From a virus, in the IMG/VR virus record IMGVR_UViG_3300037635_003602, positions 1-33,718 of that record: a stretch of DNA of 33,718 bases; one strand, 5' to 3'. Position 1 is the first letter of the stretch, and each line of letters starts with the position of its first letter. The notes under the pieces are model-generated. The model saw nothing but the letters and a program-made list of their open reading frames with translations. It had not been told where the DNA came from and searched no databases. Position numbers and translations under genes: made by a program. Below are positions 15,617 to 32,996 of the stretch, piece by piece.

Positions 15617-15631
15617 GATTTTTGATATAAA

Positions 15632-15647
15632 TTTTATATTATATATA
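15632..15647 (+). promoter_or_regulatory. Promoter-like element TTTTATATTATATATA
   Basis: It lies in the 32-base gap before ATG 15649 and nearly matches the element at 12217. The preceding TTTTTGATATAAA may extend it. It sits directly against the start codon, so a transcript from it would be leaderless or would serve the downstream genes. Confidence 0.35.
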
Positions 15648-15648
15648 T

Positions 15649-16275
15649 ATGAAGATAAGTTACGCAATTACCGTCTGTAATGAATTCGAAGAAATTCAAA
15701 AGCTAATTCCGTTTTTATTAGAAAATAAACGAGAGGAAGATGAAATTGTTATACAACAAGATTCACGTGGTAGTGTTAAAGGATTACCTGATGTTAAAGT
15801 TAAAGAATATTGTGAAGGGTTAAGTAATGTTAAGTATATAACATTTGATCTAAACAACCACTTTGCTAATTTCAAAAATAACCTAACAGATAATTGCACT
15901 GGAGATTATATATTCCAGATAGATGCTGATGAGATACCTACCACGTATATGTTGGATATGATACCTGAAGTATTAAAACATAATGACGTTGATGTGTTAA
16001 AGGTTCCGAGAATAAATACGGTAGAAGGACTCACACAAGAACATGTAGATAAGTGGAATTGGAACGTTAACAATCAAGGTTGGGTAAACTTTCCAGACTT
16101 TCAATGGCGTGTTTATAAGAATGATAACAAGATAAAATGGAAAAATCCAGTTCACGAAGTATTAGACGGTTATCAAACAATAAGTTATCTTCCAACAAAT
16201 GAAGAGTGGTGTTTACGTCATGATAAGGTGATAGCAAAACAAGAACAACAAAATAAATTATATGAAGGATTATAA
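15649..16275 (+). CDS. Family 2 glycosyltransferase (GT-A fold)
   Basis: A 208-residue protein with a GT2 opening (ISYAITVCNEFEEIQKLIPF) and the metal-binding DxD motif as DADE at 92-95 (FQIDADEIP), preceded by the usual NNHFANFKNNL helix. The later WRVYKNDNKIKWKNPVHEVLDG segment is common in short GT2 enzymes related to LPS core transferases, where a conserved H-E pair follows the strand. The enzyme should transfer one sugar from a nucleotide donor in a metal-dependent way. It precedes the SDR epimerase by one base. The starting ATG lacks a Shine-Dalgarno sequence. Confidence 0.88.
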   Translation: MKISYAITVCNEFEEIQKLIPFLLENKREEDEIVIQQDSRGSVKGLPDVKVKEYCEGLSNVKYITFDLNNHFANFKNNLTDNCTGDYIFQIDADEIPTTYMLDMIPEVLKHNDVDVLKVPRINTVEGLTQEHVDKWNWNVNNQGWVNFPDFQWRVYKNDNKIKWKNPVHEVLDGYQTISYLPTNEEWCLRHDKVIAKQEQQNKLYEGL

Positions 16276-16276
16276 A

Positions 16277-17149
16277 ATGAAAACAAAAGTATTAATTACA
16301 GGAGGTTTAGGATTTATTGGTTATAACTTAGTAAAGCGCCTATTAGAGACTTCAGAATATGAAATAACCGTTATTGATAATTTAACATCAGATTCAAGTG
16401 ATATTAACAATAAACACGAAGGAGTTAATTATATTATTGATGATATTAACAATATTAATAATGAGAAATATCAAAACGTATCATATGATTTGATCTTTCA
16501 TTTGGCAGCACTTGCTCGCATTCAGCCTTCATTTGAAGATCCTGTTTCATATTTTCAATCAAATGTATTAGGTACTGTAAATATTTGCGAATTAGCAAGA
16601 AGATGCGGAGCCAAAATTATGTATGCTGCTAGTAGTTCGGCATATGGTGGTCCTAAATTGAACCCATATGCCTTTACTAAATATACTGGTGAAGAGATTC
16701 TAAAAATGTATGCAGAACTATATGACATATCAACAGTATGTGCCAGATTTTTTAACGTGTATGGAGATCGTCAACCAACCGAAGGAACATACGCAACTAT
16801 TATAGGTATTTTCGAAAGACAGTATTCAAATGGTGAATCATTAACTATAACTGGGGATGGAGAACAACGCAGAGATTTTACTCATGTATATGATATTTGT
16901 GATGGATTGATATGTTTGAGTAAAGATAAACATAGAGGAGAAGTTTATAACTTAGGTACTGGAACAAATTATTCTATAAATGAAATTGCTGCCATGTTTA
17001 GTGATGCCACTACGTATATTCCATCACGACCAGGAGAAGCAAGAATTACATTAGCTGATATATCTGCTACGAAAAAATTTGGTTATCAACCTAAACAAAA
17101 TATTACTAATTACATACAATCATTTAAAAAATCACCAAGTGAAGCATAA
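16277..17149 (+). CDS. NAD-dependent sugar epimerase/dehydratase (extended SDR)
   Basis: A 290-residue SDR protein. The start at ATG 16277 is preferred to ATG 16262 because GAAGGA lies six bases upstream and the Rossmann strand then begins at once: VLITGGLGFIGYNLVKRL, with GxxGxxG at residues 9-15. Catalytic residues are in ASSSAYG and YAFTK (Tyr-x3-Lys). NVYGDRQ and DFTHVYDICDG are typical of UDP-glucose epimerases and related enzymes. The region between the catalytic Ser and Tyr is unusually short (YGGPKLNPYAF), so the substrate loop is trimmed. It probably makes a nucleotide-sugar donor for the adjacent glycosyltransferases. It overlaps the next gene by 11 bases if that starts at GTG 17139. 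Confidence 0.9.
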   Translation: MKTKVLITGGLGFIGYNLVKRLLETSEYEITVIDNLTSDSSDINNKHEGVNYIIDDINNINNEKYQNVSYDLIFHLAALARIQPSFEDPVSYFQSNVLGTVNICELARRCGAKIMYAASSSAYGGPKLNPYAFTKYTGEEILKMYAELYDISTVCARFFNVYGDRQPTEGTYATIIGIFERQYSNGESLTITGDGEQRRDFTHVYDICDGLICLSKDKHRGEVYNLGTGTNYSINEIAAMFSDATTYIPSRPGEARITLADISATKKFGYQPKQNITNYIQSFKKSPSEA

Positions 17150-18104
17150 AAATATTTTATTTGTAACTACACAATATCGTGTTGGTGAGCGTATATATCC
17201 TATTATTTCTAAATTATCAGAATATTACAATTTAGATTTAATGAAGTTATACCAAATGAATTCTACATATCAATGGCCAGGCGATAATGATTTAAGAAAT
17301 TATTTTGATAAACAGTATTTACAGTATTTTGACAATGTTCATACAAATATAAATGCAAACTATGATAAATATGATTTAATTATTACAGATGATAATCGTC
17401 AGTTCAATGGATTATCTGAAATATTTCATCGTAAAAAATGTTTAGTATTAGCATGTAGCCATGGAGTTACAGAACATGGATATGAAACAAAAAATGTTGG
17501 CAAATCATATGATAAATGTTTTGTATTTGGTCGCAAGGAGGTTAAACACAGTTATCAGCTTCCAGCTGGAATACCTGCAAACGATATACTAAAAACATAT
17601 TCGAATATTGAAAAAAAGCATATACTAGTCATTGTTAATTATTTAGGTCATGAAGGACAAATATCTACTGGTAATGGTACTTTTTTTAAACTATTCGATA
17701 AACAAGTTTTTGACTCAATTGATTTATTATCATTACAACAACAAAGTGGATATCCCGTAGTGATAAAATTAAAATCTAGAATTGGTCTTAATATGCAAAA
17801 AAATAAACAATACTTAAATAGCATATTACCTGAAAGTTTAGATTACAATATTGTCTATGACGTAGAAGACGATAACAAATTAATTGCTCAAAGTGCGGAA
17901 GTATATAGTGCTCCTAGTACCTTAGCTTTAAAACCTATACAATTAGGAATACCAACTACATTGATTCCAGAAACAGGCCAAACAGGTATTTTTTATGATT
18001 ATGAAACTAATAAAAATTTTATTGAAGATACGTTAGAGGGAGGCAAAGATTTTAATAGTACTCAATGTTTTTTAAAATATATAGAAAGGTGTATAAATGA
18101 ATAA
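17139..18104 (+). CDS. Probable GT-B-like surface-polysaccharide transferase, family not recognised
   Basis: A 321-residue protein. The start is placed at GTG 17139, which gives an 11-base overlap and a clean first strand (NILFVTTQYRVGERIYPII); ATG 17079 would overlap the epimerase by 71 bases with a nonsensical leader. The two-domain layout, the central CSHGVTEHGYE segment, the linker DILKTYSNIEKKHILVIVN and a C-terminal YSAPSTLALKPIQLGIPTTL donor-site-like segment resemble CDP-glycerol/capsule-type GT-B transferases. No diagnostic motif settles the family. The gene is notably AT-rich. It overlaps the next gene by eight bases. Confidence 0.6.
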   Translation: MKHKNILFVTTQYRVGERIYPIISKLSEYYNLDLMKLYQMNSTYQWPGDNDLRNYFDKQYLQYFDNVHTNINANYDKYDLIITDDNRQFNGLSEIFHRKKCLVLACSHGVTEHGYETKNVGKSYDKCFVFGRKEVKHSYQLPAGIPANDILKTYSNIEKKHILVIVNYLGHEGQISTGNGTFFKLFDKQVFDSIDLLSLQQQSGYPVVIKLKSRIGLNMQKNKQYLNSILPESLDYNIVYDVEDDNKLIAQSAEVYSAPSTLALKPIQLGIPTTLIPETGQTGIFYDYETNKNFIEDTLEGGKDFNSTQCFLKYIERCINE

Positions 18105-19059
18105 AGATAATATAATAATATATGTATCTTCTAGAAATAACTATGATATGCTAGAAGGCGAAGTGTTAAAAAATATTGATACCGAAGGTTTTGAATTTAT
18201 TAACGTTGATGATAAATCTTGTGATGAAGAAATTGCAAAAGGTAAAACTATTTGTAAAAATCATGATATTGTTTTTCTAGAAAATAAATCTAGAGGAGTA
18301 CAAATGGCTACTCAAACATTAATTGATTTTATTAATGAATCTAGGCCCAATTGTAAATGGATAATATGTTTTCAACATGATCATTATCCTTTAAGTAAAG
18401 ATTTCTTTTGTTCTATAAATAAACGAATAGAAGATAATCTTTTAGATGAATTTGGACTTATAGGATTTAATGTGTTAGATAAAGGTAATTACACCGGAGA
18501 TGCATATAATAGATTCTCACAAGGCAAATCACCGTTAGGTATGATCGGAATGTGTCATTTATCTATTCATGATAGAACTGGTAGATGGTTATGTCCAAGC
18601 CAACAAGGTCAGTTATTAAAACAAGATATTTGGAAAACACCATTTATAGTAGAATTTCCAATGTGGGCATCAGTTGGAATCAACGTTGATAAATGGAATA
18701 AGGTTATCAAACCTACAACTGATTATCATTTTCACTTATGGTTACCTGATATTGCTATGCAATTTAATTATAAAAATTATCCTTGTTTGATACTACCTGA
18801 TTTATATACATTAAACGATCAACATTTAAAAACAAAATATGGTATAGATCAATCGTCTGCACCAGGAGCACGAAGAGGTAATGAATATCATTTTGGAAAA
18901 TATTCTAATTTTGATGCATGGACAGAAAGATGGGGTTGGTACTATGAAGATATAGTAAATGATTTTGAACAAATAAAATATAATTACAAAGATACATTAA
19001 TATGGGACTATTATCATCACGATATAACAACAGGCCCATTAAAAAGTTTTAATATATGA
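18097..19059 (+). CDS. Putative GT-A fold glycosyltransferase
   Basis: A 320-residue protein beginning IIIYVSSRNNYDMLEGEVLKN with an INVDDKSCDEE segment and GVQMATQTLIDF helix, as in GT2 enzymes. CFQHDHYPLS may hold the metal-binding acidic residue in place of DxD (H-D-H). The C-terminal half is rich in Trp, Tyr and His (WTERWGWYYEDI, WDYYHHDITTG), not typical of simple GT2 enzymes. The acceptor is unknown. It overlaps both neighbours by 4-8 bases and belongs to the same transcription unit. An alternative is a non-catalytic relative, given the changed DxD. Confidence 0.6.
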   Translation: MNKDNIIIYVSSRNNYDMLEGEVLKNIDTEGFEFINVDDKSCDEEIAKGKTICKNHDIVFLENKSRGVQMATQTLIDFINESRPNCKWIICFQHDHYPLSKDFFCSINKRIEDNLLDEFGLIGFNVLDKGNYTGDAYNRFSQGKSPLGMIGMCHLSIHDRTGRWLCPSQQGQLLKQDIWKTPFIVEFPMWASVGINVDKWNKVIKPTTDYHFHLWLPDIAMQFNYKNYPCLILPDLYTLNDQHLKTKYGIDQSSAPGARRGNEYHFGKYSNFDAWTERWGWYYEDIVNDFEQIKYNYKDTLIWDYYHHDITTGPLKSFNI

Positions 19060-20009
19060 AAATATTAGTTACAGGTGCAGCAGGATTAATCGGTAGTCAT
19101 ACAACAGATTTATTAATTGAAGCAGGACATATGGTTGATGGAATTGACGATTTATCATATGGGACTTTAAATAATTTGTCAGATGCTATAAAAAATAAAA
19201 ATTTTAAATTTATACATGACAAAGTAGAAAATATCGACAACTATAAAACAAAATATGATGTTATATATCATTTTGCATCATTAAAAAAAGCATGGGATGG
19301 TAGTGTGTTATCTGCAGATATTTTAGATACAAATTATTATATGACTAAAATTTTAGTTCAACGTTGTTTGCAACATAAAACTAAGTTTATATTTGCATCT
19401 ACTAGTGATATATATGGTAATTCAAAAACATTTTGCGAAGATGACAACATAACAATGGGTGCTCCTACTAATATTCGATATTCATATGCTTTATCAAAAT
19501 GGTATAGTGAACAACACATACTAAATACCTTTCAACAACAAGGGTTAGAGTGTACCGTGATACGTATCTTTGGATGTGCTTCAAAACGTTCTTCAACAAC
19601 ATGGAGTGGAGGACATATTCCATTATTTGCTAAATTAGCAGCTCAAGGTAAAGACATTGTAATACATGGTGATGGATTGCAAACTAGATCAATTTCTCAC
19701 GCAAATGATATAGCAACTGGATTTGTAAGTATTTTAAATAATCAACAAACAACAAATGGTGAAATTATAAATTTAGGAACCGATGAACAAACTACAGTAA
19801 AATACACTGCGGAATATATTAATAATTATTTTAAAAATCAATCAGACATAATATTTGTTCCATCAGAAAAAATATTTGGAAATTATCAAGAAATATTAGT
19901 TAGATTTGCTAATATTACAAAAGCAGAAAAATTACTAGATTATAAAATTAAAAAAAATACAAATGAAGTAATTCAAGAAATTTGTTTAAACATACAAAAT
20001 AAAAAATGA
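19056..20009 (+). CDS. NAD-dependent epimerase/dehydratase (extended SDR)
   Basis: A 317-residue SDR protein opening ILVTGAAGLIGSHTTDLLIE with GxxGxxG near residues 7-13. Asp-Asp after the second strand (IDDLSYG) indicates NAD rather than NADP. The catalytic Ser/Thr lies in FASTSDIYGN and Tyr-x3-Lys in YSYALSKWYSEQ. IRIFGCA and SISHANDIATG replace the usual NVYGP and DFxHVxD segments. Such enzymes epimerise or dehydrate nucleotide sugars. It is followed without a gap by a 2-hydroxyacid dehydrogenase, a CMP-sugar synthetase and NeuB, so it may prepare the precursor of a nonulosonic acid. The exact reaction is not predictable. Confidence 0.88.
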   Translation: MKILVTGAAGLIGSHTTDLLIEAGHMVDGIDDLSYGTLNNLSDAIKNKNFKFIHDKVENIDNYKTKYDVIYHFASLKKAWDGSVLSADILDTNYYMTKILVQRCLQHKTKFIFASTSDIYGNSKTFCEDDNITMGAPTNIRYSYALSKWYSEQHILNTFQQQGLECTVIRIFGCASKRSSTTWSGGHIPLFAKLAAQGKDIVIHGDGLQTRSISHANDIATGFVSILNNQQTTNGEIINLGTDEQTTVKYTAEYINNYFKNQSDIIFVPSEKIFGNYQEILVRFANITKAEKLLDYKIKKNTNEVIQEICLNIQNKK

Positions 20010-20953
20010 AAATAGCAGTAATAACCCCAGTATTTCATTTAGACGGAATCGTACAATTACTTATAAATAAAAGTAACGAGTTATATCTTCGTGAAGAATC
20101 ATCAAAAGAACAAGTTAGAAATTTACTATTAAAACGTAATATTGATACTATAGTTTGTAATCCAAATCAACAAACATATAAAATTGATGAAGAGCTACTA
20201 CAAGGAACCAATGTTAACTTAATCAATACATGTTCAACTGGTATGAATCATATCGACGTTGAATATTGTAAGAAACAAAACATTAAAATTTTGTCTTTAA
20301 CTAAAGATTATGAATTAATTAAACAGTTACCATCAACATCTGAATTAGCATTTGGACTGATGTTGTCATTGTTACGAAGTATACCACAAAGCAAACAACA
20401 TGTTTCTGAATATAATTGGGACTATATACCATTTATAGGACGAGAAGTTAAATCATTAACAATAGGTATCATTGGTTACGGTCGATTAGGAAAGATGATG
20501 TACAATTATTGCAAAGCTTTTGGAGCTAATGTAAAAGTATATGATCCATATAAACGAGATGAAATGGATGATGCATTTTTACTTAATACGTATTGCGAGT
20601 TAACAGATATGTTCAAACAATGTGATGTTATATCGTTACACGTTCATGTTACTGATGAAACGAAGTACATGATTAATAAAGATTTACTTGGATATAGTAA
20701 AAAATCTCCATATATTATTAATACCAGTAGAGGTGAAATAGTTAACGAAAAAGATATTGTAGAAGCATTGGAAAATAAAGTTATATCAGGTTATGGTGCA
20801 GATGTAGTTGAAAATGAATTTGACGACTTACAAGCATCTCCTATTATACAAGCAATGAATCAAGGAGAAAATATAATAGTTACGCCACATACTGGCGGAA
20901 TGACAATTGAAGGTCAAACTAGAGCATATAAATGGGCAATAAATAAATTATGA
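20006..20953 (+). CDS. D-2-hydroxyacid dehydrogenase family protein
   Basis: A 315-residue protein of the phosphoglycerate/2-hydroxyacid dehydrogenase family. The NAD-binding turn is IGIIGYGRLGKMMYNYCKAF (GxGxxG). Catalytic Arg is in INTSRGEIV, a catalytic-Glu candidate in GADVVENE, and His in VTPHTGGM. CSTGMNHID corresponds to the substrate-binding loop. The enzyme would reduce or oxidise a 2-keto/2-hydroxy acid with NAD(H). Inside a sugar cluster next to a NeuB homologue, this is unusual and suggests an acidic C3 unit is built or added to a glycan, but no known pathway is matched. It overlaps both neighbours by four bases (ATGA). Confidence 0.9.
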   Translation: MKIAVITPVFHLDGIVQLLINKSNELYLREESSKEQVRNLLLKRNIDTIVCNPNQQTYKIDEELLQGTNVNLINTCSTGMNHIDVEYCKKQNIKILSLTKDYELIKQLPSTSELAFGLMLSLLRSIPQSKQHVSEYNWDYIPFIGREVKSLTIGIIGYGRLGKMMYNYCKAFGANVKVYDPYKRDEMDDAFLLNTYCELTDMFKQCDVISLHVHVTDETKYMINKDLLGYSKKSPYIINTSRGEIVNEKDIVEALENKVISGYGADVVENEFDDLQASPIIQAMNQGENIIVTPHTGGMTIEGQTRAYKWAINKL

Positions 20954-21489
20954 AAATATTAGTAATTATACCAGCAAAAACAGATTCAACTAGATTACCT
21001 AAAAAAAATATACAAAAAATTAAAGGTAAAACATTAGTTGAATATTCAATTGATTATGCTAAACAAAGTAAGTATAATCCTGAAATTATAGTTTCATCAG
21101 AGAGTGATGACGTATTAAAAATAGCATTAGATAACCAAGTAGGGTTTACAGAACGCCCGGCTCATTTACTTAAGGATGCAGAGGTAACCGACGTATATAT
21201 TGACATATTAAAAAATACCACAACTAAATATGATCTAATAGTTTGTTTACAACCTGATCATCCAGATAGAGAACATACTTTTGATTATTGTGTAGATTAT
21301 ATGATAGATAATAACTATGACGATTTGATTACAATTGAGCCATCATTTAAACGGAGTGGATCTGTTAGAATTTTTAAATATGATCATTTACTAAACAGTA
21401 ATGTTTCAAAAAGAATAGGATGTATAAAAGATGATGCAACCGATATACATTACCAACAAGATTTAGAACGAGCAAAAGAACGACTATGA
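20950..21489 (+). CDS. CMP-nonulosonate (sialic acid-like) synthetase, NeuA-like
   Basis: A 179-residue cytidylyltransferase. It starts ILVIIPAKTDSTRLPKKNIQ, the nucleotide-binding signature of CMP-NeuAc and CMP-KDO synthetases (IPARxxSxRxPxKN). IIVSSESDDVLKIA and VCLQPDHPDR follow at the usual spacing; the second corresponds to the LQPTSPLR motif with PTSP changed to PDHP. It would join CTP to a nonulosonic acid, giving the CMP donor used by a transferase. It is about 45 residues shorter than typical NeuA, missing part of the C-terminal dimer arm. The immediate coupling to a NeuB homologue (ATGA overlap) strongly supports the pathway assignment. Confidence 0.85.
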   Translation: MKILVIIPAKTDSTRLPKKNIQKIKGKTLVEYSIDYAKQSKYNPEIIVSSESDDVLKIALDNQVGFTERPAHLLKDAEVTDVYIDILKNTTTKYDLIVCLQPDHPDREHTFDYCVDYMIDNNYDDLITIEPSFKRSGSVRIFKYDHLLNSNVSKRIGCIKDDATDIHYQQDLERAKERL

Positions 21490-22283
21490 ATATTATAGCA
21501 GAAATAGGATGGAACCATATGGGAGATATGGCATTAGCAAAACAAATGATTATTGAAGCTTCAACAAATGGAGCCACACATGCAAAGTTTCAATCATGGT
21601 CAGTAAGTAATCTTAAACCTGGAGTATGGGATACTGATGGTCGTCGTGAAATATATGAAAAAGCTCAATTAACATTAGCTGACCATAAATATCTTAAACA
21701 GGTATGCGATGATAATAATATCGAATTTATGTCATCTGTATTTTCATTGGAAGATGTTGGGTTATACAAACAAGTAACAACAAAATGTGTAAAAATACCA
21801 TCATTTGAAAGTAGAAATTATCCACTTATTAAAAAATGTATGGATGTGTTTGATAAAGTATATATATCAATCGGAACTACTACATGGGATGAAGTTAAAG
21901 AGTTAGCACGTATTATTGATATTAATAAAACGTGTATAATGCATTGTGTTTCAACATATCCATTACATCCAAAAAATGCAAATATTTTAAAATTAAAAGA
22001 ATTAAATAAATTATTTAAATGGGTTGGATATTCAGATCATATGCAAGGTGTTGAATCTGCAAAAGTTGCATTAGAATTTGGAATACATGCAATTGAAAAA
22101 CATTTTACGGTAGATAATGAATTGCCAGGGAGAGACAATAAATTTGCAATACTTCCTAAACAATTAAATGATTTATCTGAATACTTAAAATTACGAAATG
22201 ATATGATGATTGATAATGGACTAGATTATCAAGATTTTGAGTTAGATTCAAGACTAAATTATACAGGTAGATTCGATGGATAA
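21486..22283 (+). CDS. Nonulosonic acid synthase, NeuB-like (no SAF domain)
   Basis: A 265-residue TIM-barrel protein with NeuB signatures: IAEIGWNHMGD (4-14), AKFQ (33-36), MHCVSTYPL (152-160), GYSDH (181-185), EKHFT (204-208) and LPGRDNKFA (213-221). NeuB condenses a hexosamine (such as ManNAc) with phosphoenolpyruvate to form sialic acid or a related nonulosonate. Cellular NeuB has about 340 residues with a C-terminal antifreeze-like SAF domain that covers the active site of the partner subunit; it is absent here, which is odd and may change substrate or partner. It overlaps the CMP synthetase by four bases and the next glycosyltransferase by eight. The upstream 2-epimerase was not found. 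Confidence 0.9.
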   Translation: MNIIAEIGWNHMGDMALAKQMIIEASTNGATHAKFQSWSVSNLKPGVWDTDGRREIYEKAQLTLADHKYLKQVCDDNNIEFMSSVFSLEDVGLYKQVTTKCVKIPSFESRNYPLIKKCMDVFDKVYISIGTTTWDEVKELARIIDINKTCIMHCVSTYPLHPKNANILKLKELNKLFKWVGYSDHMQGVESAKVALEFGIHAIEKHFTVDNELPGRDNKFAILPKQLNDLSEYLKLRNDMMIDNGLDYQDFELDSRLNYTGRFDG

Positions 22284-22920
22284 TATTAGCATTATTATAA
22301 GAAATAGAAACGAGGCTGAGTTTATAGGATTTGCTATTCAATCTTGTTTAGATCATTTCAAAAAACCAGAAATTATAATAGTAGATAATAAATCTACTGA
22401 TGATTCATTAGAAATTGTCAATTTATTTAAAGATCGAACTACAATTAAAATTATATCAATTGACGACTATACGCCTGGCAAATCAATTAATATGGGTGTT
22501 AAACAATGTTCTAATGATTATATTTTAGTATTGTCAGCTCATGCTCAGATTACTAACATGAATCTTGAACGAGTTGTAATGCATTTTAAAAACAGAAATG
22601 TAGCAGTATTTGGAAATCAAATTCCTGTATATAAAGGCAAAAAAATATCAAAAAGATATATCTGGAGTCATTTTTCCGAAGATGAAACATTGGATATGTA
22701 TTCAGATATAGAACAACGTTATTTTCTTCATAACGCATTTTGTTTTTATGAAAAAGCCGTTTTAGTTAATAATCCAATGCCAGAACAATATCCAGGCAAA
22801 GAAGATAGATATTGGGCAAAAGATATGATAGATAAACATCAACATTACATTTACGAATCATCTATATCAGTTAATCATTTTTATACTGGTAATGGAGCAA
22901 CATGGAAAGGAATAGGATGA
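22276..22920 (+). CDS. Family 2 glycosyltransferase
   Basis: A 214-residue GT2 protein: ISIIIRNRNEAEFIGFAIQS opening, IIVDNKSTDDSLEIV, and a TPGKSINMGVKQCSNDYILVLSAHAQI segment in which the common DxD is replaced by SAHA, a variation known in short GT2 members. It retains the Asn-Met-Gly helix before it. GKEDRYWAKDM near the C-terminus supplies the E-D pair often acting as the catalytic base. As the first gene after NeuB, it may transfer the CMP-activated sugar, although CMP-sialic acid transferases normally belong to other families, so this is speculative. It overlaps the next gene by four bases. Confidence 0.82.
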   Translation: MDNISIIIRNRNEAEFIGFAIQSCLDHFKKPEIIIVDNKSTDDSLEIVNLFKDRTTIKIISIDDYTPGKSINMGVKQCSNDYILVLSAHAQITNMNLERVVMHFKNRNVAVFGNQIPVYKGKKISKRYIWSHFSEDETLDMYSDIEQRYFLHNAFCFYEKAVLVNNPMPEQYPGKEDRYWAKDMIDKHQHYIYESSISVNHFYTGNGATWKGIG

Positions 22921-23654
22921 ATATATTAGCAGTATTAGTTAACTATGGTGAAGAACAATTAAATTATTTACAACAAGTTGTTACCGAGTTAAAAAGTTTT
23001 CAAAAATATAATGTAACTGTTATAGTTAATTCTAATATTTCATTAAATCAGATTAACGGTATTGATAATTTAAATGTAATAAAATTAAATGATTACCAAT
23101 TATTACCATTAACATGTAGAAAAGTTATATGGGAACATAGGAACAATTTTGATATTTTTATGTTTGGTGAAAACGATCATTTGTTTAAAGAACATCATGT
23201 AGACAAGTATTTAGAATATAATAAAATTTTACCAAAAGATAGGATAACGGGATTAATACAATATGAAGAAAATGAAACAGGTAAATATTATCCAGCATAT
23301 CATGCTCACTATAAATGGGACAATAATAGTGTAGAAGAATATGGTAATAAAAAGTTTGCACATTTTACTAATATACATCAAGCTACATTTATATTAACAA
23401 AAGAACAGTTATTAGATATAGGAAAGAAACATGATTTTACTAAGTTTTTTGGATCATCACAATACAGTGTAAAATGTAAAGTTAATACCGATATCTATCA
23501 ATTTTGTGGAATGAAAAAAATGATTTGTATAAGTGAATTTGAAGATAATTTAATTCATCATTTACCTAACATATATATTAATGGTACAAATGGAAGAGCA
23601 AAATTAGGACGTAATCATACGCATATGATAAATTCAATAAAGGAAATATTATGA
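22917..23654 (+). CDS. Putative GT-A-like glycosyltransferase
   Basis: A 245-residue protein. ATG 22917 is chosen for its ATGA overlap and because the first strand MNILAVLVNYGEEQLNYLQQ then starts the fold. FMFGENDHLFKEHH supplies an acidic END motif at the place of DxD in GT-A enzymes. YHAHYKWDNNSVEEYG and FAHFTNIHQATFILTKEQLL follow, the latter as in enzymes that read a 'mature' acceptor strand. No family is recognised firmly. A structural comparison would decide between a transferase and a sugar-binding relative. It is coupled to the methyltransferase by a four-base overlap. Confidence 0.5.
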   Translation: MNILAVLVNYGEEQLNYLQQVVTELKSFQKYNVTVIVNSNISLNQINGIDNLNVIKLNDYQLLPLTCRKVIWEHRNNFDIFMFGENDHLFKEHHVDKYLEYNKILPKDRITGLIQYEENETGKYYPAYHAHYKWDNNSVEEYGNKKFAHFTNIHQATFILTKEQLLDIGKKHDFTKFFGSSQYSVKCKVNTDIYQFCGMKKMICISEFEDNLIHHLPNIYINGTNGRAKLGRNHTHMINSIKEIL

Positions 23655-24241
23655 TAAATTTAGAAGAAAAGGTAAATCAGTTATATAATACTAAATCTGA
23701 TATTAATGAGCACCTTCCAACAATAATAAGATATGGACAAGAATGTGATCATATTACTGAAATGGGTGTTCGTAGTATTTTATCTACATGGGGTTGGTTA
23801 GCAGCTGCTCCTAAGAAAAAATTAATTTCATATGATTTACAAAATCCAAGTAAATGGGGTGGCAACATTAATGATGTTATAGAAACCGCAAAAGCATATG
23901 GCATAAATTTTGAATTTATTGAAGCTGATGTTTTAAAGATTGATATTGAAGAAACTGATTTATTGTTTATCGATACATGGCATCATTATAATCAATTAAC
24001 AGCTGAATTAAAAAAACATTCGAACAAAGTTAAAAAATATATATGTTTTCATGACACAACTTCATATGAACACCATAGCGAACCAACTACTTCAGAAAAC
24101 TCATATTCAGACGAATTAATTTGGGAAAAGGGTTTATGGGATGCTGTTACTGAGTTTTTGGATGCAAATGCAGACACATGGAGATTAAAAGAACGATTTA
24201 CTAACAATAATGGTTTTACAATTATAGAACGTATTAAATGA
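23651..24241 (+). CDS. Class I SAM-dependent methyltransferase-like protein
   Basis: A 196-residue Rossmann-type protein. ITEMGVRSILSTWGWL, near residues 35-50, stands for motif I (E-x-G), LISYDLQ for the acidic end of strand 2, and DLLFIDTWHHYNQL for motif IV, followed by ICFHDTTSYEH. This arrangement matches class I methyltransferases of the FkbM/Methyltransf_24 and cephalosporin-hydroxylase-like groups, which often decorate sugars. The second Gly of motif I is replaced by Arg-Ser. It probably methylates a sugar or glycan of this cluster and could instead be a hydroxylase relative. It overlaps both neighbours by four bases. Confidence 0.7.
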   Translation: MINLEEKVNQLYNTKSDINEHLPTIIRYGQECDHITEMGVRSILSTWGWLAAAPKKKLISYDLQNPSKWGGNINDVIETAKAYGINFEFIEADVLKIDIEETDLLFIDTWHHYNQLTAELKKHSNKVKKYICFHDTTSYEHHSEPTTSENSYSDELIWEKGLWDAVTEFLDANADTWRLKERFTNNNGFTIIERIK

Positions 24242-24948
24242 AAATAATTTATAGAATATCAGATGCTGGTTATAAAAAAGAAAAACCAGATTACATAGAC
24301 AACGAAACATGTTTAGTAAATGCTTCGACGAGATTTGAACGAGAAGATTGGTTGGTCATTGCTGATAACTGCAGTGATGAAACTACAGATATGGTAAAAG
24401 CAGTAACAACGTCTTTTCATCTAGGAGATAGTAAACTTAAATCTGTTTCGGTAGGACATGGTGCGGGTACATTTAACATAGCATTAGACGAAGCATTGCA
24501 ATACAATGATGACGACATAGTTTATTTCATAGAAAATGATTATATACACAAACCAGAGTCTGCAAAGATAATACAAGAAGGATTTGATTTAGGAGCGTCA
24601 TTTGTTGCACTATACGATCATCCAGATAAATACCTAGACCCAAGTAAAGGAGGTAATCCGTATTGCCAAGGCGGGGGTGAAGATACAAGAGTATATCTAA
24701 CTAACAGCTGTCATTGGAAAATAACCAATAGCACAACAATGACATTTGCTGCAAAAGTATCCACACTAAAACGAGTAGAAGCAACATTGAGAAAACATAC
24801 ATCGGGAACACATCCTAATGATTTCCAAATGTTTTTAGAGTTAAGACAACAAGGAGAGTTGTTGATAACACCTTTACCAGGCTATGCTACACACGGAGAG
24901 ACAGCTTGGCTATCGCCATTAACCAATTGGAAAGCATATACGATATGA
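24238..24948 (+). CDS. GT-A fold glycosyltransferase-like protein
   Basis: A 236-residue protein. LVIADNCSDETTDMV resembles the GT2 donor loop, GHGAGTFNIALDEAL the following helix, and VYFIENDYIHKPESAKIIQE holds an END acidic motif in place of DxD. A CHWKITNSTTMTFAAKV segment and C-terminal YATHGETAWLSPLTNW include conserved His-Gly-Glu that could bind metal. This matches phage glycosyltransferases often placed beside sugar clusters. The substrate is unknown. It overlaps the last glycosyltransferase by four bases. Its codon use looks less AT-extreme than the 17-22 kb genes, but I made no systematic count. Confidence 0.65.
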   Translation: MKIIYRISDAGYKKEKPDYIDNETCLVNASTRFEREDWLVIADNCSDETTDMVKAVTTSFHLGDSKLKSVSVGHGAGTFNIALDEALQYNDDDIVYFIENDYIHKPESAKIIQEGFDLGASFVALYDHPDKYLDPSKGGNPYCQGGGEDTRVYLTNSCHWKITNSTTMTFAAKVSTLKRVEATLRKHTSGTHPNDFQMFLELRQQGELLITPLPGYATHGETAWLSPLTNWKAYTI

Positions 24949-25700
24949 TATCAGTAATTATCCCAACATATAAAAGTCCTGATATGCTAGATTTATGTTT
25001 AAGATCTGCAATTGAAGGGCAAAAGAATCAAAACCAAATCATAGTTGTAGTAGATGGATTCTATAATCTAAATAAAGAAGTACTCGAAAAATGGTCGGAA
25101 CATATTGATATTTTAAACTTAGAACAAAATGTTGGACTGTGTAGGGGAACAAACTTAGGTGTTTATAATGCAAAACATGATAAAATACTCATAGTAAATG
25201 ATGATAATGTTTTCCCTAAAGATTGGGATGTTATTCTTGAGTTAAATTGGAGTGATGGGGCTTTAATCTCACCCAACCAAATCGAACCATACCCAAGTAT
25301 GTTCTCTCAATTCCATATTAAAGATTTAGGTAAAAACATAAGTGAATTTGATTTAGATAAATTTTGGGAATATGAAAAATCTATCTCTCTAGAAAAACAA
25401 GATGGGTTTGGTTCAACATTACCTATATTCATGTCTAAATTAGATTACTTAAAAATGGGAGGATGGGATGAAAATTATGAATTAGGAATGGTAGCAGATT
25501 GGGATTTCTTTTTAAAGGCCGATTTAAACAATATATCCTTAATTAGACTATACAATCTACATTTCTATCACTTTGCTTCAGCATCAACTAATGGTGAATC
25601 TCGAAAAAAGGCTGAACGGTCTGGCCATGAATATTCTAAATATAAATGGGGCGGATATATACAACACGATCCCGAATCAAATAAAAAATTTATAGATTAA
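24945..25700 (+). CDS. Family 2 glycosyltransferase, last gene of glycan island
   Basis: A 251-residue GT2 enzyme. ATG 24945 gives the ATGA overlap and the canonical start ISVIIPTYKSPDMLDLCLRS. QIIVVVDGFYNLN, then NVGLCRGTNLGVYNAKHDKI and the DxD motif as NDDN (IVNDDNVFP) follow. GGWDENYELGMVADWDFFLKA is the typical acceptor-side ED/WD segment of active GT2 proteins. It should be active. It ends the island, and the next gene starts after a 37-base gap with its own ribosome site, so the transcription unit probably ends here or runs on into lysis genes. Confidence 0.9.
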   Translation: MISVIIPTYKSPDMLDLCLRSAIEGQKNQNQIIVVVDGFYNLNKEVLEKWSEHIDILNLEQNVGLCRGTNLGVYNAKHDKILIVNDDNVFPKDWDVILELNWSDGALISPNQIEPYPSMFSQFHIKDLGKNISEFDLDKFWEYEKSISLEKQDGFGSTLPIFMSKLDYLKMGGWDENYELGMVADWDFFLKADLNNISLIRLYNLHFYHFASASTNGESRKKAERSGHEYSKYKWGGYIQHDPESNKKFID

Positions 25701-25737: not shown

Positions 25738-26697
25738 ATGTTATTAAAAAAAGGCTCAAAAGGTAAAGAAGTAAAACAACTTCAAGAAGCTTTAAAAATA
25801 GGAGCTGATGGTATATTTGGCCCTGGAACAGAGAAAGCTGTCATGAAATTTCAAAAAGATAATGGACTAGCTGCAGACGGTATTGTAGGTTCCAAGACAT
25901 GGGAAGCAATAGGGATAGATACAGATCAATCCAGTAACACATCAGCAGAAGATACTGCGTATGATAAAGATAATAAACTTGCAAAGCACGGAACATATAC
26001 AACCAAAGATGGTCTTGTTATCGATAAAGTGTATTTAGATTCTGATGAATATGTTAGAGATTATGGAAAAATAGAACCTTTGGGATTCTTTATACATCAT
26101 ACAGCTGGATGGGACAATCCATATAACACTGTTAATAATTGGAACAGAGATAAGCGCGGGAGAGTAGCTACTCAATATTGCATTGGTGGAACTAATGTTA
26201 AAGGTAAAGCAGCTAAATATGATGGTGTAGTAGTTGAATGTTTTCCTAATAACTATTTAGGATGGCATTTAGGTAAAGTAGGCAATTTCCAAATTTCTAA
26301 GATGTCTGGTGGTGTTGAGCTTAACAACTTTGGATATCTCAAAAAGAAAGGCGACAAATATTATACATATGTAAATACAGAAGTCCAGCCAGAGTTTGTT
26401 TGCGATTTAGGTTATAAGTTTAGAGGACATCAATATTGGCACGCATATTCAAATAAACAAATTGAGAGTTTACGGCTCTTGATTCTTCACCTACGTGATA
26501 TTTATCCTAAAATGGATTTGGTAAATGGATTACCAAAACTATTGAAAGAAGGAGTTGCCCCGGCAGATGCATTTGAATTTAACTCAGACGCATATAATGC
26601 TAAGCAATTTGGATTATGGACACACACTAATGTTCGTAAAGATAAGTTCGATTGTTTTCCGCAACCGGAGCTAGTAGAAATGTTAAAACAATTATAA
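25738..26697 (+). CDS. Endolysin: peptidoglycan-binding domain plus N-acetylmuramoyl-L-alanine amidase
   Basis: A 319-residue two-domain lysin. Residues 1-58 form a PG_binding_1 domain (GSKGKEVKQLQEALKIGADG, then FGPGTEKAVMKFQKDNGL and VGSKTWEAIG). After a Ser/Asp-rich linker, residues 110-260 resemble amidase_2: FFIHHTAGWDN (His120-His121), ATQYCIGG, and GWHLG (His177); RGHQYWHAYSNKQIESL holds later His residues. In this family a His from the HH pair, a distal His and a Cys/Asp bind zinc; which later residue is the third ligand is uncertain. It would cut the bond between muramic acid and L-Ala at lysis. There is no signal peptide, so it needs the holin-like protein next door for release. Confidence 0.9.
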   Translation: MLLKKGSKGKEVKQLQEALKIGADGIFGPGTEKAVMKFQKDNGLAADGIVGSKTWEAIGIDTDQSSNTSAEDTAYDKDNKLAKHGTYTTKDGLVIDKVYLDSDEYVRDYGKIEPLGFFIHHTAGWDNPYNTVNNWNRDKRGRVATQYCIGGTNVKGKAAKYDGVVVECFPNNYLGWHLGKVGNFQISKMSGGVELNNFGYLKKKGDKYYTYVNTEVQPEFVCDLGYKFRGHQYWHAYSNKQIESLRLLILHLRDIYPKMDLVNGLPKLLKEGVAPADAFEFNSDAYNAKQFGLWTHTNVRKDKFDCFPQPELVEMLKQL

Positions 26698-26717: not shown

Positions 26718-26728
26718 TTTTATATTAT
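26718..26728 (+). promoter_or_regulatory. Short TTTTATATTAT element near the holin-like gene start
   Basis: This matches the core of the elements at 12217 and 15632 and overlaps the upstream candidate start ATG 26727. If it is a promoter, transcription would begin downstream and the true start would be ATG 26763, which has its own ribosome site. Confidence 0.25.
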
Positions 26729-26762
26729 GAACAAGTTACTTTTAAAAATAAAAGGAAAACTT

Positions 26763-26999
26763 ATGGCGTTTGGTAATATCTTTAAAGACGACAATGATAT
26801 CAACGAAAAAAGTGTAGTTGGATTTGCTTCATTTGCAGTAATGGTAATATTTGCAGTAGCAGATGTTGTTACCGGCTGGGGTGGGGGTGATTTAGTAATT
26901 AATGAATTTATATACAATTCATTTTTATGGATTACATTAGGAAGCTTTGGAATTGCAGAAGCTGGTAAAATATTCAAATCAAAATCAAATAACGAATAA
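26763..26999 (+). CDS. Holin-like membrane protein (two transmembrane spans)
   Basis: A 78-residue protein from ATG 26763, which has AAAGGA six bases upstream; ATG 26727 would add 12 basic residues (MNKLLLKIKGKL) and is possible. Two hydrophobic spans, about residues 17-37 (GFASFAVMVIFAVADVV) and 45-65 (NEFIYNSFLWITLGSFGIAEA), are separated by a Gly/Trp turn (TGWGGGD), with a charged C-terminus (KIFKSKSNNE). Size, topology and position directly after an endolysin without a signal peptide are those of a class II-like holin. The dual-start arrangement resembles holin/antiholin pairs, in which the longer form with extra N-terminal charge is inhibitory. No sequence signature proves the role. Confidence 0.6.
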   Translation: MAFGNIFKDDNDINEKSVVGFASFAVMVIFAVADVVTGWGGGDLVINEFIYNSFLWITLGSFGIAEAGKIFKSKSNNE

Positions 27000-27000
27000 C

Positions 27001-28092
27001 ATGAGAATAGCATTAATAACATTGATAGTATGGTTAAGTGCATTTAATATTAATGCTCAAATCATTAAAAACTTCTTCAAGTACTCTACGGTATATGCAT
27101 CTGGTAGGGTTGGACAACCACTTCAAGAGACAAGCAAAGATTGGTATGTTGATCAAGGAAGTAATTTAACAGACGTAACTGAGGTTTATCCATATGATTA
27201 TACAATATCAGTCGGTATTAGAAAAATAGCTAGATTTGATTACGAAATCAAACCTAATGTATTTTATGATGGGTCGGAAGTAAATGTTGGATCTAAATCA
27301 AACGTCGGAGCAGTAAAGGGATTTGAATATATATTCGCGCATGACTGGGTTAGACAATGGGGAGACCAGTATCGAAATCAAACATACTTTTTACGATATC
27401 TAGGTAAATATTGGGTTGGTGCTATAAAATTTAACGAAATTGGTGTAGCTGATTTAAGATATTCTCAAGCAGATCTCAGAAGCCGGTTTGCTATAGGTAA
27501 ATTTTTTAATATTACCGCTGGGGTTGTAGGAAGAACACATAGGCCATATGGTTATAATCCAATTGCAGATTATCTACAATATAATCCATGGTGGAGTTTA
27601 GCATATGAATATGGATATACAGATAATTTTTATGGAATTGATTATGACAACGATAATGAGATAGATAATTTTGATTGGACGTGGAATGATCCAGATGGAA
27701 ATAAAGTTGCTGATACCGATTTAGATTTTAGAAACAATATATATGGTGATATTGTTAACGATTATAATAGTACCATGTTAGATTCAGTAGGAACAATGTA
27801 CACATTATCAGCCGCAGTTGGATTAGATTTTTATTATTATTCAGATAACGAACGTTTTTGGTGCCATATATGGGGAAATTTATTGCCATTTCATAAACAT
27901 ATAGCCGGCGATAGAGATTTTAGTTACTCTAACTTTATAGGTCAAAATCAATGGTTAGATTATAATGCTGGGGTAATTGCTGGCGCTAAGTTAGGTAAAG
28001 GATTTGGTCTGTTTGTAGAAGGAGAATATCTAAAATATTGGGATAGAAAAGTATATTCAGGTAAGATAGGAATTAATTATCAATTTAAATAA
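27001..28092 (+). CDS. Exported beta-barrel-like outer-membrane protein with calcium-loop motifs
   Basis: A 363-residue protein; ATG 27001 follows the previous stop by one base. Residues 1-20 are a Sec signal peptide (basic RI, hydrophobic core, AFNINAQ end). The mature part has alternating aromatic/polar strands and ends FGLFVEGEYLKYWDRKVYSGKIGINYQFK-like strands (residues 335-363), typical of outer-membrane barrels. A loop at 214-240 has two Asp ladders: Asp214, Asp216, Asp218, Asp222, Asp225 and Asp230, Asp232, Asn234, Asp238, both matching EF-hand-type calcium loops. A phage-coded protein placed in the host outer membrane is unusual; receptor masking, superinfection exclusion or lysis are possibilities. 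Alternatively it is a virion component. Confidence 0.65.
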   Translation: MRIALITLIVWLSAFNINAQIIKNFFKYSTVYASGRVGQPLQETSKDWYVDQGSNLTDVTEVYPYDYTISVGIRKIARFDYEIKPNVFYDGSEVNVGSKSNVGAVKGFEYIFAHDWVRQWGDQYRNQTYFLRYLGKYWVGAIKFNEIGVADLRYSQADLRSRFAIGKFFNITAGVVGRTHRPYGYNPIADYLQYNPWWSLAYEYGYTDNFYGIDYDNDNEIDNFDWTWNDPDGNKVADTDLDFRNNIYGDIVNDYNSTMLDSVGTMYTLSAAVGLDFYYYSDNERFWCHIWGNLLPFHKHIAGDRDFSYSNFIGQNQWLDYNAGVIAGAKLGKGFGLFVEGEYLKYWDRKVYSGKIGINYQFK

Positions 28093-28093
28093 G

Positions 28094-28109
28094 TTTTGTA
28101 TTATTATAT
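28094..28109 (+). promoter_or_regulatory. Promoter-like element TTTTGTATTATTATAT
   Basis: It sits just after the outer-membrane gene stop in a 53-base gap, one of the longest in the window. A second part of the gap, TTATTGATATTAATAGAGGTAG, ends in a GAGG ribosome site 11 bases before ATG 28146. The T-run plus TATTATTATA form fits the other elements. Confidence 0.35.
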
Positions 28110-28145
28110 GATAGGTTATTGATATTAATAGAGGTAGAATAATAA

Positions 28146-28442
28146 ATGGCAAAAGAATTAAATGAAGAAACGGGATTTAAAGTAAGTGTAAAGACATTAA
28201 TTGGTATTGCTGTCGGAATCACAACAATTGTTGGATTTTGGTTTGCATTTCAGGGCGATTTGCAAGTAATGCGTAATGATATCGAAGACGCAAAGAAATT
28301 ACCAGACCCGGTAATTGATAGAGTTGAATATGATTTAAAAGATCAATTAGTTAGACAAACCATTATGGACACTCAGGATGATGTTGATGAAATAAAAGAT
28401 GACATGGATCGTATTGAGGCAAAAATAGATAAATTAAAATAG
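28146..28442 (+). CDS. Membrane-anchored coiled-coil protein
   Basis: A 98-residue protein with one transmembrane span at about residues 17-36 (TLIGIAVGITTIVGFWFAF), a short basic/polar N-terminus and a C-terminal 60-residue coiled coil full of Asp/Glu/Lys heptads (VDEIKDDMDRIEAKIDKLK). The design (cytoplasmic N-terminus, one span, periplasmic coiled coil) is like an i-spanin or a phage structural tether. It follows a promoter-like gap with a GAGG ribosome site and lies directly before an exported protein, which could be its partner. There is no lipobox in the neighbour, so a classical two-component spanin is not established. Confidence 0.7.
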   Translation: MAKELNEETGFKVSVKTLIGIAVGITTIVGFWFAFQGDLQVMRNDIEDAKKLPDPVIDRVEYDLKDQLVRQTIMDTQDDVDEIKDDMDRIEAKIDKLK

Positions 28443-28451
28443 GATATATAT

Positions 28452-28823
28452 ATGAAGTATATTATCACATTATTAAGTATATGTATATGTACAATTGTTA
28501 TGTCGCAGTCTAGATTAACTAATACTACATTTAAAAAAGCAATATCAAAAGGTGTTACTGTAGTACAATTTAATGCAAAGTTTAATAAAGATAATGGATT
28601 ACGTAATCTTAACGATCTCAATCAATGTCATTGGCATACTGTATTTATTGATCTTAGTCCCGAGTTAAAAAAGAAATATAAGATATATGCAGTACCAACA
28701 ATAATTGTATTTTATAATGGGTATATTGAGAAAAAATTTAAAGGAAATATAATGCTTGAATTGGATGTAACAATATCTGATATACAAGCGGTAATTGACG
28801 AATTATTATTAAATAAATTTTAA
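28452..28823 (+). CDS. Exported thioredoxin-fold protein lacking the CxxC site
   Basis: A 123-residue protein with a Sec signal peptide (residues 1-18: KYIITLLSICICTIVMSQ). The mature part looks like thioredoxin: VTVVQFNAKFN strand, a helix, HTVFIDLS and the cis-proline AVPTIIVFYNG (Pro82). At the place of the redox CxxC it has Asn-Lys-Asp-Asn (residues 45-48), so it cannot act as an oxidoreductase. The only mature Cys is Cys59 (QCHWH). It is probably a periplasmic binding or inhibitory protein. A Bacteroidota-type host is suggested by this kind of signal peptide with an early Gln after Ser. It starts nine bases after the previous stop, with only A/T leader. Confidence 0.65.
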   Translation: MKYIITLLSICICTIVMSQSRLTNTTFKKAISKGVTVVQFNAKFNKDNGLRNLNDLNQCHWHTVFIDLSPELKKKYKIYAVPTIIVFYNGYIEKKFKGNIMLELDVTISDIQAVIDELLLNKF

Positions 28824-28830
28824 GATAAAA

Positions 28831-29430
28831 ATGATACACGAAGTATACTTAGGAATTATAACTGCATTAATTGGTGTTGTTGGCACATTAACAGCAATCT
28901 GGCTTAAATACTATTTAGATCGAAAAAAGAATAACCACAATTGTATTATCGATCAAACTATACGAGAAGACGGGGAGTTATTGTCTAAGCTTGAAGATGT
29001 CAAGAGTGAATTGTCAGCTGATCGAATTAGTATATTTTCATTTCATAATGGTGGAGAATATTATGCCGGGAAATCAATGCAAAAGCTTTCATGTTCATAT
29101 GAAGTTGTAAATCTAGGAGTTTCTAGAACACAACTAGATCTACAAAATATACCAGTGTCAGCATGTTTACCTACCCTTCGGCCGTTGATTAAGGATAAAG
29201 AGTATCACTGTTACGATATCAAACGAAATTACCCAGAAAGTTTTTGTAAGTATAAATTAATAGAAGGCGGCGTAAAATCAGTATATCAATTTGCTATATT
29301 TGATCTCAATAAAAAGGCCATTGGAATTATTCGAGCGGATTATGTTACTAAAAAAGTAAAGTTAACAACTAAAGATCTAGAAACCTTAAAATACCTAGCA
29401 ATTAAATTACCAGGATATCTTATTAAATAA
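28831..29430 (+). CDS. Membrane-tethered GAF-like sensor-domain protein
   Basis: A 199-residue protein. Residues 5-25 form one transmembrane span (VYLGIITALIGVVGTLTAIWL) followed by a basic stop-transfer stretch (KYYLDRKKN). The soluble part looks like a GAF domain: ISIFSFHNGGEYYAG, then a long middle loop, GVKSVYQFAIFDLNKKAIGIIRADYV and a final helix. GAF domains bind small molecules such as cyclic nucleotides, but no phosphodiesterase, kinase or output domain is present here. The domain is short and truncated compared with a full GAF. Function in phage is unknown. It starts seven bases after the previous stop, in the same transcription unit. Confidence 0.55.
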   Translation: MIHEVYLGIITALIGVVGTLTAIWLKYYLDRKKNNHNCIIDQTIREDGELLSKLEDVKSELSADRISIFSFHNGGEYYAGKSMQKLSCSYEVVNLGVSRTQLDLQNIPVSACLPTLRPLIKDKEYHCYDIKRNYPESFCKYKLIEGGVKSVYQFAIFDLNKKAIGIIRADYVTKKVKLTTKDLETLKYLAIKLPGYLIK

Positions 29431-31778: not shown

Positions 31779-32996
31779 ATGTTAACCGAATATGAAACAC
31801 AGAGCACACTAAATCCTAAACTATGGGATGGAGATCAACTTAAGCCGGGGTTGAATGAAAAGTTTTTGCGTATTGCAGATGCATTTTATAAATTCCTAGA
31901 GTTACCAGAAACAGTAGAAGTGTTTGATGTTTTAATTATTGGTAGTAATGCTAACTATAATTGGACAGAATATTCTGATATTGATTTGCATGTAGTAATT
32001 AATTATCAAGCAGTAGGCAATAATCTGCACTTAGTTAAAAATTACTTGATGGCAAAGAAAAGCATATGGAACAATAATTATCCGTTAAAATTCAAAGGAA
32101 TGGATATTGAATTATATGCTCAAGATCAAAACGACCAATTGCATGCATCTGTAGGACAATATTCATTAATGACCAATGAATGGTTAAAACAACCCTCTGC
32201 CGATATCATATCAGTTGATGATGAACTTATTCAATCAAAAGCAGATCCTATAGAATATGAAATAGAAAAGTTAACAGATACAGATCCTAGATTAGAATCT
32301 AAACTAGAAAGTATATTAACACGTTTATATAAAATGCGACAAAATGGATTAGAAGCTGAGGGAGAATATTCAGTTGAAAATTTAGCATTCAAGAAAATAC
32401 GTAATTCTGGATTACTTGATCGTATTAAACAATTAAGTAAACAGATAACACTGAGTCAGCTACAAGTAGAACAAGTAGTAGAAGAACAGTATGATACCGT
32501 ATTAGACGAATTAGCAGCTCATATGACCAAACAAAAAATATTAGACGATGCTGGATGGCAACGGGTAATGAAATATACTAATGCTATTTCTGATCCACAA
32601 GGTCAGTTAAATCATCCTGGTAAATGCACAATGATACCTAGCGGAAACATAACAATGAACAATGTTCCGCATAAAGTTTTAGGCATTGATGATACGGGTA
32701 ACACAAAAATGATGCGTCCGGATAATGATTATGGATATCCAGGAGGTCAGGTATTTGAAATACCAGTTACTCCAGAGCAAAACACGTTGTTGAAAAAATT
32801 AAGAATTCGTCTTAGTGATATGAGTATAATGAAAGAACAAGATTTTGCTGGACCATTTGGCAAGGAACATGATTATGGAGACTACGGCGGCCCATGGGGA
32901 ACTGGTCATCATCATAAAACAGATTTAAAAAAAGGCCCGGGTAAGAATCCAATGGATAGTATCAGTGCCAATTGGCCAGTAACAGATAAATATTAA
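31779..32996 (+). CDS. Nucleotidyltransferase-domain protein in virion region
   Basis: A 405-residue protein. Residues 50-113 form a minimal Pol-beta-type nucleotidyltransferase: GSNANYNWTEYSDIDLHVV, with the GS signature at 55-56, Asp67 and Asp69 as metal ligands, and Asp109 in FKGMDIELY as the third carboxylate. All three acids are present, so it may be active. The middle (residues 150-260) is helical, and the C-terminal part (KCTMIPSGNITMNNVPHKV..., then Gly/Tyr/His-rich HDYGDYGGPWGTGHHH) seems unrelated. Substrate (protein, tRNA or nucleotide) is unknown. Two bases separate it from the 644-residue gene. Homologues occur next to T4-like tail genes. Confidence 0.7.
   Translation: MLTEYETQSTLNPKLWDGDQLKPGLNEKFLRIADAFYKFLELPETVEVFDVLIIGSNANYNWTEYSDIDLHVVINYQAVGNNLHLVKNYLMAKKSIWNNNYPLKFKGMDIELYAQDQNDQLHASVGQYSLMTNEWLKQPSADIISVDDELIQSKADPIEYEIEKLTDTDPRLESKLESILTRLYKMRQNGLEAEGEYSVENLAFKKIRNSGLLDRIKQLSKQITLSQLQVEQVVEEQYDTVLDELAAHMTKQKILDDAGWQRVMKYTNAISDPQGQLNHPGKCTMIPSGNITMNNVPHKVLGIDDTGNTKMMRPDNDYGYPGGQVFEIPVTPEQNTLLKKLRIRLSDMSIMKEQDFAGPFGKEHDYGDYGGPWGTGHHHKTDLKKGPGKNPMDSISANWPVTDKY

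Follow-up and report, generated by a model that had tools for sequence, protein, structure and literature searches.

We propose that the secreted protein encoded at 27001-28092 of the window (a whole virus record of 33,718 bases), here termed OMP, serves in the outer membrane as one part of an envelope-spanning lysis module of three genes in uncultured, mostly marine, probably Bacteroidota-infecting phages, a reading that we hold at slightly under even odds. The other two genes encode a small protein with one transmembrane (TM) segment, TMCC, and an exported protein with a probable thioredoxin fold, TRX. The fixed linkage of OMP to these two envelope proteins in the lysis region is the informative feature of this DNA, and it was overlooked in the original prediction, which had dealt with the OMP gene as that of a calcium-dependent surface protein. 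The genes and features concerned are:

25738-26697, + strand: endolysin with PG_binding_1 and Amidase_2 domains (Pfam E 4.8e-15 and 4e-06; PHROG endolysin E 3.7e-18)
26727-26999, + strand: holin-like small membrane protein of 90 aa with two hydrophobic segments (from sequence; relatives in 80 viral loci)
27001-28092, + strand: OMP, predicted secreted outer-membrane-type beta-barrel protein (12-stranded AlphaFold model; Foldseek matches to outer-membrane barrels)
27001-27057, + strand: OMP signal peptide, residues 1-19, upstream of the conserved Q20 (from sequence)
28146-28442, + strand: TMCC, 98 aa, single TM segment at the N-terminus followed by a conserved helical tail resembling a coiled coil (from sequence)
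28452-28823, + strand: TRX, 123 aa, signal peptide and predicted thioredoxin-fold domain without WCxxC, C-terminal Phe (Pfam; profile against PDB)
27003-28839, no strand assigned: block absent from the near-identical viruses L005 and L006, which have 10 bp in its place

The OMP gene and its viral relatives

The OMP ORF is intact and encodes 363 aa, with an ATG that abuts the stop codon of the preceding gene. The signal peptide, the aromatic strand pattern and the barrel-like C-terminus named in the original prediction are all seen in this ORF: the N-terminal signal peptide ends in NINAQ, with Q20 invariant across 33 sequences, the strand pattern is rich in Tyr, Phe and Trp, and the C-terminus (GKIGINYQFK) is of the barrel type. 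By a simple rule, 102/109 OMP members have the N-terminus of a Sec signal peptide.

The window OMP protein had no match in Pfam, PHROG, NCBIfam, PADLOC or PDB sequences, and neither OMP nor TMCC received a family name at a convincing E-value from these collections. Likewise, none of 50,697 phage records matched the window OMP or a 39%-identical relative from another locus (L044). The direct protein search with OMP yielded a single spurious locus; the first viral match, L002, was rejected as a chance DNFDWTWN in an unrelated protein. Relatives were reached through the neighboring gene at 26727-26999 (80 viral loci), and an ORF search of those 80 loci and of 4 more fetched via another window gene gave 49 OMP ORF matches in 48 loci. 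An alignment of 33 OMP sequences, termed A1, was used for the wider searches and for AlphaFold. With A1, at least 587 related stretches were recovered from IMG/VR. A calcium-dependent surface protein made by a phage had been called unusual; in view of this number and of the other phage barrels that are known (PF24653), phage-made outer-membrane proteins as such are not unusual.

The A1 search of bacterial and archaeal genomes returned 11 contigs, and all three of those with genes listed look like phage DNA. Among 395 genomes of the class to which one Flavobacteriales MAG belongs, the sole OMP match was the contig of the seed MAG itself. As far as tested, OMP thus appears to be a virus family rather than a host gene family. 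These genome searches gave no support to a host-derived auxiliary porin or secretion channel, serving nutrient uptake or the export of phage secreted proteins, which we regard as improbable. Such a channel would fit the Foldseek matches to porins and to channels for export (NanC, FapF, Tsx), and also the relatives in which a cargo gene of the type IX secretion system (T9SS; Por_Secre_tail) adjoins the barrel gene, as in L086. However, besides the results of the genome searches, most loci lack the cargo gene, whereas TMCC and TRX are almost always present.

Predicted barrel fold

The AlphaFold model of OMP from the single sequence was unusable (pLDDT 33). Alignment A1 yielded a model with 12 long strands (pLDDT 74.6, pTM 0.65), the even number expected for the closure of an outer-membrane barrel; residues 79-103 are unsure. 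A segment around residues 72-93 is conserved. Foldseek with this model found outer-membrane barrels, among them the NanC porin (E 6e-6), Tsx, FapF, PcoB and autotransporter beta-domains, with low TM-scores. The best structural match was the BFVD entry A0A516LKJ4 (E 4e-29, 29% identity, nearly full length), a viral protein with no name or function in the tables, and this protein and OMP are probably members of the same family. Lom is another phage-encoded barrel. The cyanophage outer-membrane-protein-like beta-barrels of PF24653 (Phage_OMP) resemble OMP in being phage-encoded barrels of the outer-membrane type, but the PF24653 model had no significant match to the OMP family (1/33 members, E 0.057), and the structural matches of proteins named Phage_OMP to the OMP model were partial and weak (E 0.04 or worse).

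The model predicts that OMP is located in the bacterial outer membrane. Its longest loop comprises residues 181-265 and would be extracellular, assuming the usual barrel topology with both ends periplasmic. The original prediction had suggested structure prediction to look for a barrel with an extruded calcium loop, and the alignment-based model is in line with the barrel, having 12 strands in a fold that carries the first of two Asp ladders on a beta-hairpin within loop 181-265. It is very improbable that OMP is a structural or adsorption protein of the virion. It is phage-encoded and has an Asp-rich surface loop, as such a protein might, but a signal peptide, an outer-membrane-type barrel and a placement among lysis genes all argue against this role.

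Asp ladders and calcium

OMP had been proposed to carry two EF-hand-like calcium loops, which correspond to the following stretches:

27640-27675, + strand: first Asp ladder, residues 214-225 (DYDNDNEIDNFD), calcium-loop-like DxDxDxxxDxxD (pattern fit, shuffle P 0.003)
27688-27726, + strand: second Asp-rich stretch, spanning residues 230-242 and part of a hairpin motif common to the family (alignment, spacing test)

The proposal held for the first ladder, which fits the pattern D.D.[DN]...D..[DE], matched in 0.3% of composition-preserving shuffles of OMP. In the second ladder, DPDGNKVADTDL, EF-hand position 12 is occupied by L, a departure from the DxDx[DN]xxxDxx[DE] spacing. This ladder falls within a hairpin found across the family, [DN]P[DE]GxxVAxSDLxFR, in which the would-be ligand positions 230, 232, 234 and 238 are variable. 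On account of the spacing and the varying ligand positions, we rejected the second ladder as a calcium loop. The Pfam models for EF-hand, dockerin and TSP3 did not match OMP even at E 10, and the location of the first ladder on a beta-hairpin of the model differs from the helix-loop-helix of a canonical EF-hand.

The five Asp of the first ladder are identical in 7/112 aligned OMP members, mostly as DxDxDGxxDxxD; six of these carriers form one branch, and two changes are needed on the tree. The ladder is missing from the nearest full-length relatives of the window, L013 (64% identity) and L099. Judged by its pattern, the first ladder is a plausible calcium loop in the lineage of the window. Since one ladder is not a calcium loop by its spacing, and the other is present in 7/112 members with sister lineages lacking it, calcium cannot be the purpose of the family. 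It is a side feature of OMP, and the description of OMP as a calcium-dependent surface protein is not supported, since it relies on a single loop carried by few members.

The three-gene unit

TMCC has a single hydrophobic segment, and its helical periodicity is 2.30, compared to 1.39 for shuffled sequences; it thus shows the N-terminal TM segment and helical tail that characterize an i-spanin. The side C-terminal to the segment is the more negative one (-2.46 vs -0.62), a slight indicator of an N-in/C-out orientation. The window TRX matches Pfam Thioredoxin at E 2.4e-4, which is under the curated cut-off, and its profile matches PDB at E 1e-12. These matches, and those of 16/23 TRX members to PF00085, suggest that TRX shares the thioredoxin fold. 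It differs from PF00085 in that it is exported and lacks the CxxC site, with [WY]CxxC in 0/108 and any CxxC in 1/108 members. In a search against the 50,697 phage records, TRX had one match (MT836215.1, 30% identity). We also observed that the last residue is Phe in 95/108 TRX proteins; such conservation of the C-terminus is unusual for a periplasmic protein of this fold.

The linkage of the three genes was assessed in loci drawn from metagenomic contigs, many of them incomplete. TMCC and TRX lie within 2.5 kb of OMP on the same strand in 61/62 non-identical OMP loci (2.5 kb flanks), the exception being L096, in which the TMCC-TRX pair is 2.9 kb upstream of OMP; all three genes are co-stranded in 62/62. 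When the OMP-found loci with enough flank were dereplicated (<90% identity), TMCC and TRX were within 2.6 kb in 40/41, L096 again being the remaining one. Two gene orders occur, OMP-TMCC-TRX and TMCC-TRX-OMP. The TMCC and TRX genes are nearly fused, with a median gap of -1 bp and a gap of at most 40 bp in 109/112 cases. In some loci (L106, L111, L121, L130-L134 and L150), TMCC-TRX pairs flank the barrel gene on both sides, as if duplicated.

The well-flanked loci of the holin-like gene (n = 40) include 29 with all three genes, 9 with none, one with TMCC and TRX only, and one with OMP and TMCC, a co-occurrence with a Fisher P of 4e-8, computed on sequences that are not independent. In L005 and L006, the DNA on either side of the missing three-gene block is ~87% and ~95% identical to the window. 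The unit is absent at this locus in both records, each of which is incomplete, and is therefore not universal. The correlation of distances (Spearman) was 0.30 for OMP-TMCC, 0.26 for OMP-TRX and 0.59 for TMCC-TRX; the barrel thus tracks the TMCC-TRX pair only weakly and may be in part independent of it.

Lysis-region context

In the window, the gene order is endolysin, holin-like gene, OMP, TMCC, TRX. The holin-like protein has no Pfam or PHROG match and belongs to no named family; its position suggests that it is the holin. Lysis genes around the unit were labeled by Pfam and PHROG matches of representatives, extended by iterated HMMs. The neighbors identified in this way are Peptidase_M15_3/endolysin phrog_894, holin phrog_3427, Phage_holin_4_1, endolysin-like phrog_33083, amidase phrog_822 and a PG-binding amidase. 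In the OMP-found loci, to which this count is restricted, lysis genes had a density of 0.533 per kb up to 1 kb from the unit, which fell to 0.062 between 1 and 2 kb and to 0.000-0.018 farther out. A peptidoglycan enzyme is found no more than 2 kb from the unit in 28/34 loci; these enzymes vary in family (M15, two amidase types and the phrog_33083 type), and the three-gene unit beside them is constant.

We considered two further explanations in the light of this context. In the first, the barrel would mask or displace a phage receptor, in superinfection exclusion or envelope remodeling, with TMCC and TRX as helpers in assembly or anchoring and the lysis neighbors as shared late envelope genes. 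The signal peptide and barrel model are compatible with this, as is the long predicted surface loop 181-265, whose inserts, the Asp ladder among them, are particular to lineages, and the all-or-none occurrence of the trio in close relatives fits an accessory trait. However, so close a link to lysis enzymes of multiple families would not be expected, exclusion systems as a rule are expressed early and do without partners in the inner membrane (IM) or periplasm, and PADLOC gave no match, so we consider this explanation unlikely. A defence system was rejected for the same lack of a PADLOC match.

In the second explanation, which seems somewhat less likely still, TMCC and TRX would sense or hold the envelope in the manner of periplasmic antiholins, with the barrel as an anchor or signal input, and the role of the module would be to delay or trigger lysis instead of breaking the outer membrane. 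The same linkage and position data can be read in this way, and an inactive Trx fold would suit a binding domain. On the other hand, the holins vary by genome (phrog_3427, Phage_holin_4_1 or the holin-like gene) while the module is constant, which makes a holin-specific partner unlikely.

A proposed spanin-like bridge across the envelope

Under the lysis-module reading that we prefer, we infer that the trio forms a complex, bridges the envelope and disrupts the outer membrane. TMCC would sit in the inner membrane and, in a tentative orientation, extend its helical tail into the periplasm, and TRX would be exported to the periplasm, where its inactive thioredoxin fold could act as a binding domain. 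OMP would insert into the outer membrane as the predicted 12-stranded barrel and dock TMCC and TRX on its periplasmic side. With the inner membrane opened and the peptidoglycan removed by holin and endolysin, the bridge would then pull on the outer membrane or disrupt it locally, as Rz/Rz1 spanins do, with the barrel in place of the o-spanin lipoprotein. With slightly more reserve than for the role of OMP, we suggest that the TM protein with its helical tail, the redox-inactive Trx-fold linker and the 12-stranded barrel make up a three-component spanin-like system that is widespread in uncultured marine Bacteroidota phages, and that it offers a route of outer-membrane breakage to phages without recognizable spanins.

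The trio resembles the two-component Rz/Rz1 spanins of lambda in several respects. Both have their genes in the lysis region and include a small inner-membrane protein that starts with a TM segment and has a helical tail for the periplasm. In both, the partner for the outer membrane is exported separately, and a bridge presumably spans the periplasm. The trio differs in its additional third, thioredoxin-fold component and in its outer-membrane partner, which is a predicted beta-barrel, whereas the o-spanin of lambda is a lipoprotein. A lipobox was found in 0/109 OMP and 0/108 TRX proteins. By a crude scan, the window contains no lipobox ORF, and 10/49 loci have one within 3.5 kb. The trio had no match to a named spanin family in Pfam or PHROGs. 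Because its outer-membrane partner is not a lipoprotein, it is spanin-like in layout yet falls outside the two-component spanin family.

Several considerations count against the bridge. To our knowledge, canonical spanins need neither a barrel nor a third component, and genes that adjoin in a late operon can differ in function. Bacteroidetes phages are described as using only unimolecular spanins (PMC12596118), and one of these could lie elsewhere in the present genomes. Potential unimolecular spanins have been annotated in two of the flavophages of another study, with a holin/endolysin model for the rest (PMC8776804). The list of spanin-less phages in PMC6139136 includes some with Croceibacter (flavobacterial) and Bacteroides hosts, and its authors point out that the role of o-spanin could be taken by an outer-membrane protein. 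We found no published description of the three-gene module in the open-access literature. The breach of the outer membrane by phages without a recognizable spanin is a question raised in PMC6139136, for which the trio is a concrete, recurrent candidate. If the reading is true, it would add a barrel-based mode of outer-membrane breakage and provide a searchable signature for the lysis modules of uncultured viruses.

Host and other genes of the window

The host phylum is probably Bacteroidota: related phages encode type IX secretion tails, signal peptides end in Q, and part of the MAG labels of OMP contigs point to it. The remaining MAG labels conflict with this phylum, probably through errors in binning. 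Large secreted proteins are encoded beside the holin-like or barrel gene in several relatives (L086, 39-2156; L007, 8284-11055; L003; L009; L012; L096, 3992-5956). Several of these carry repeats of the GCxDxxAxNYDxxA type, and the L086 copy ends in the type IX secretion sorting domain PF18962. Given this domain, the phages may export cargo via the T9SS of the host.

Upstream of the lysis genes, positions 12882-25700 comprise ~13 kb of surface-glycan genes with many glycosyltransferase-like ORFs, two sugar epimerase/dehydratases (best matches LegB- and GalE-type) and one 2-hydroxyacid dehydrogenase. Within this region, 21486-22283 encodes a protein similar to sialic/pseudaminic acid synthases (NeuB, E 2e-50, under the curated cut-off) and 20950-21489 a possible nucleotidyltransferase. 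The gene content suggests synthesis of a nonulosonic acid or another glycan. The ORF at 5877-7133 contains a motif like that of tRNA-guanine transglycosylases (FGDSGGFQ) and had no NCBIfam match; it may encode a DpdA-like enzyme of 7-deazaguanine DNA modification. The 405-aa product of 31779-32996 has a weak similarity to nucleotidyltransferases (E 0.011) and a strong match to phrog_36119, a family of unknown function (E 2e-46).
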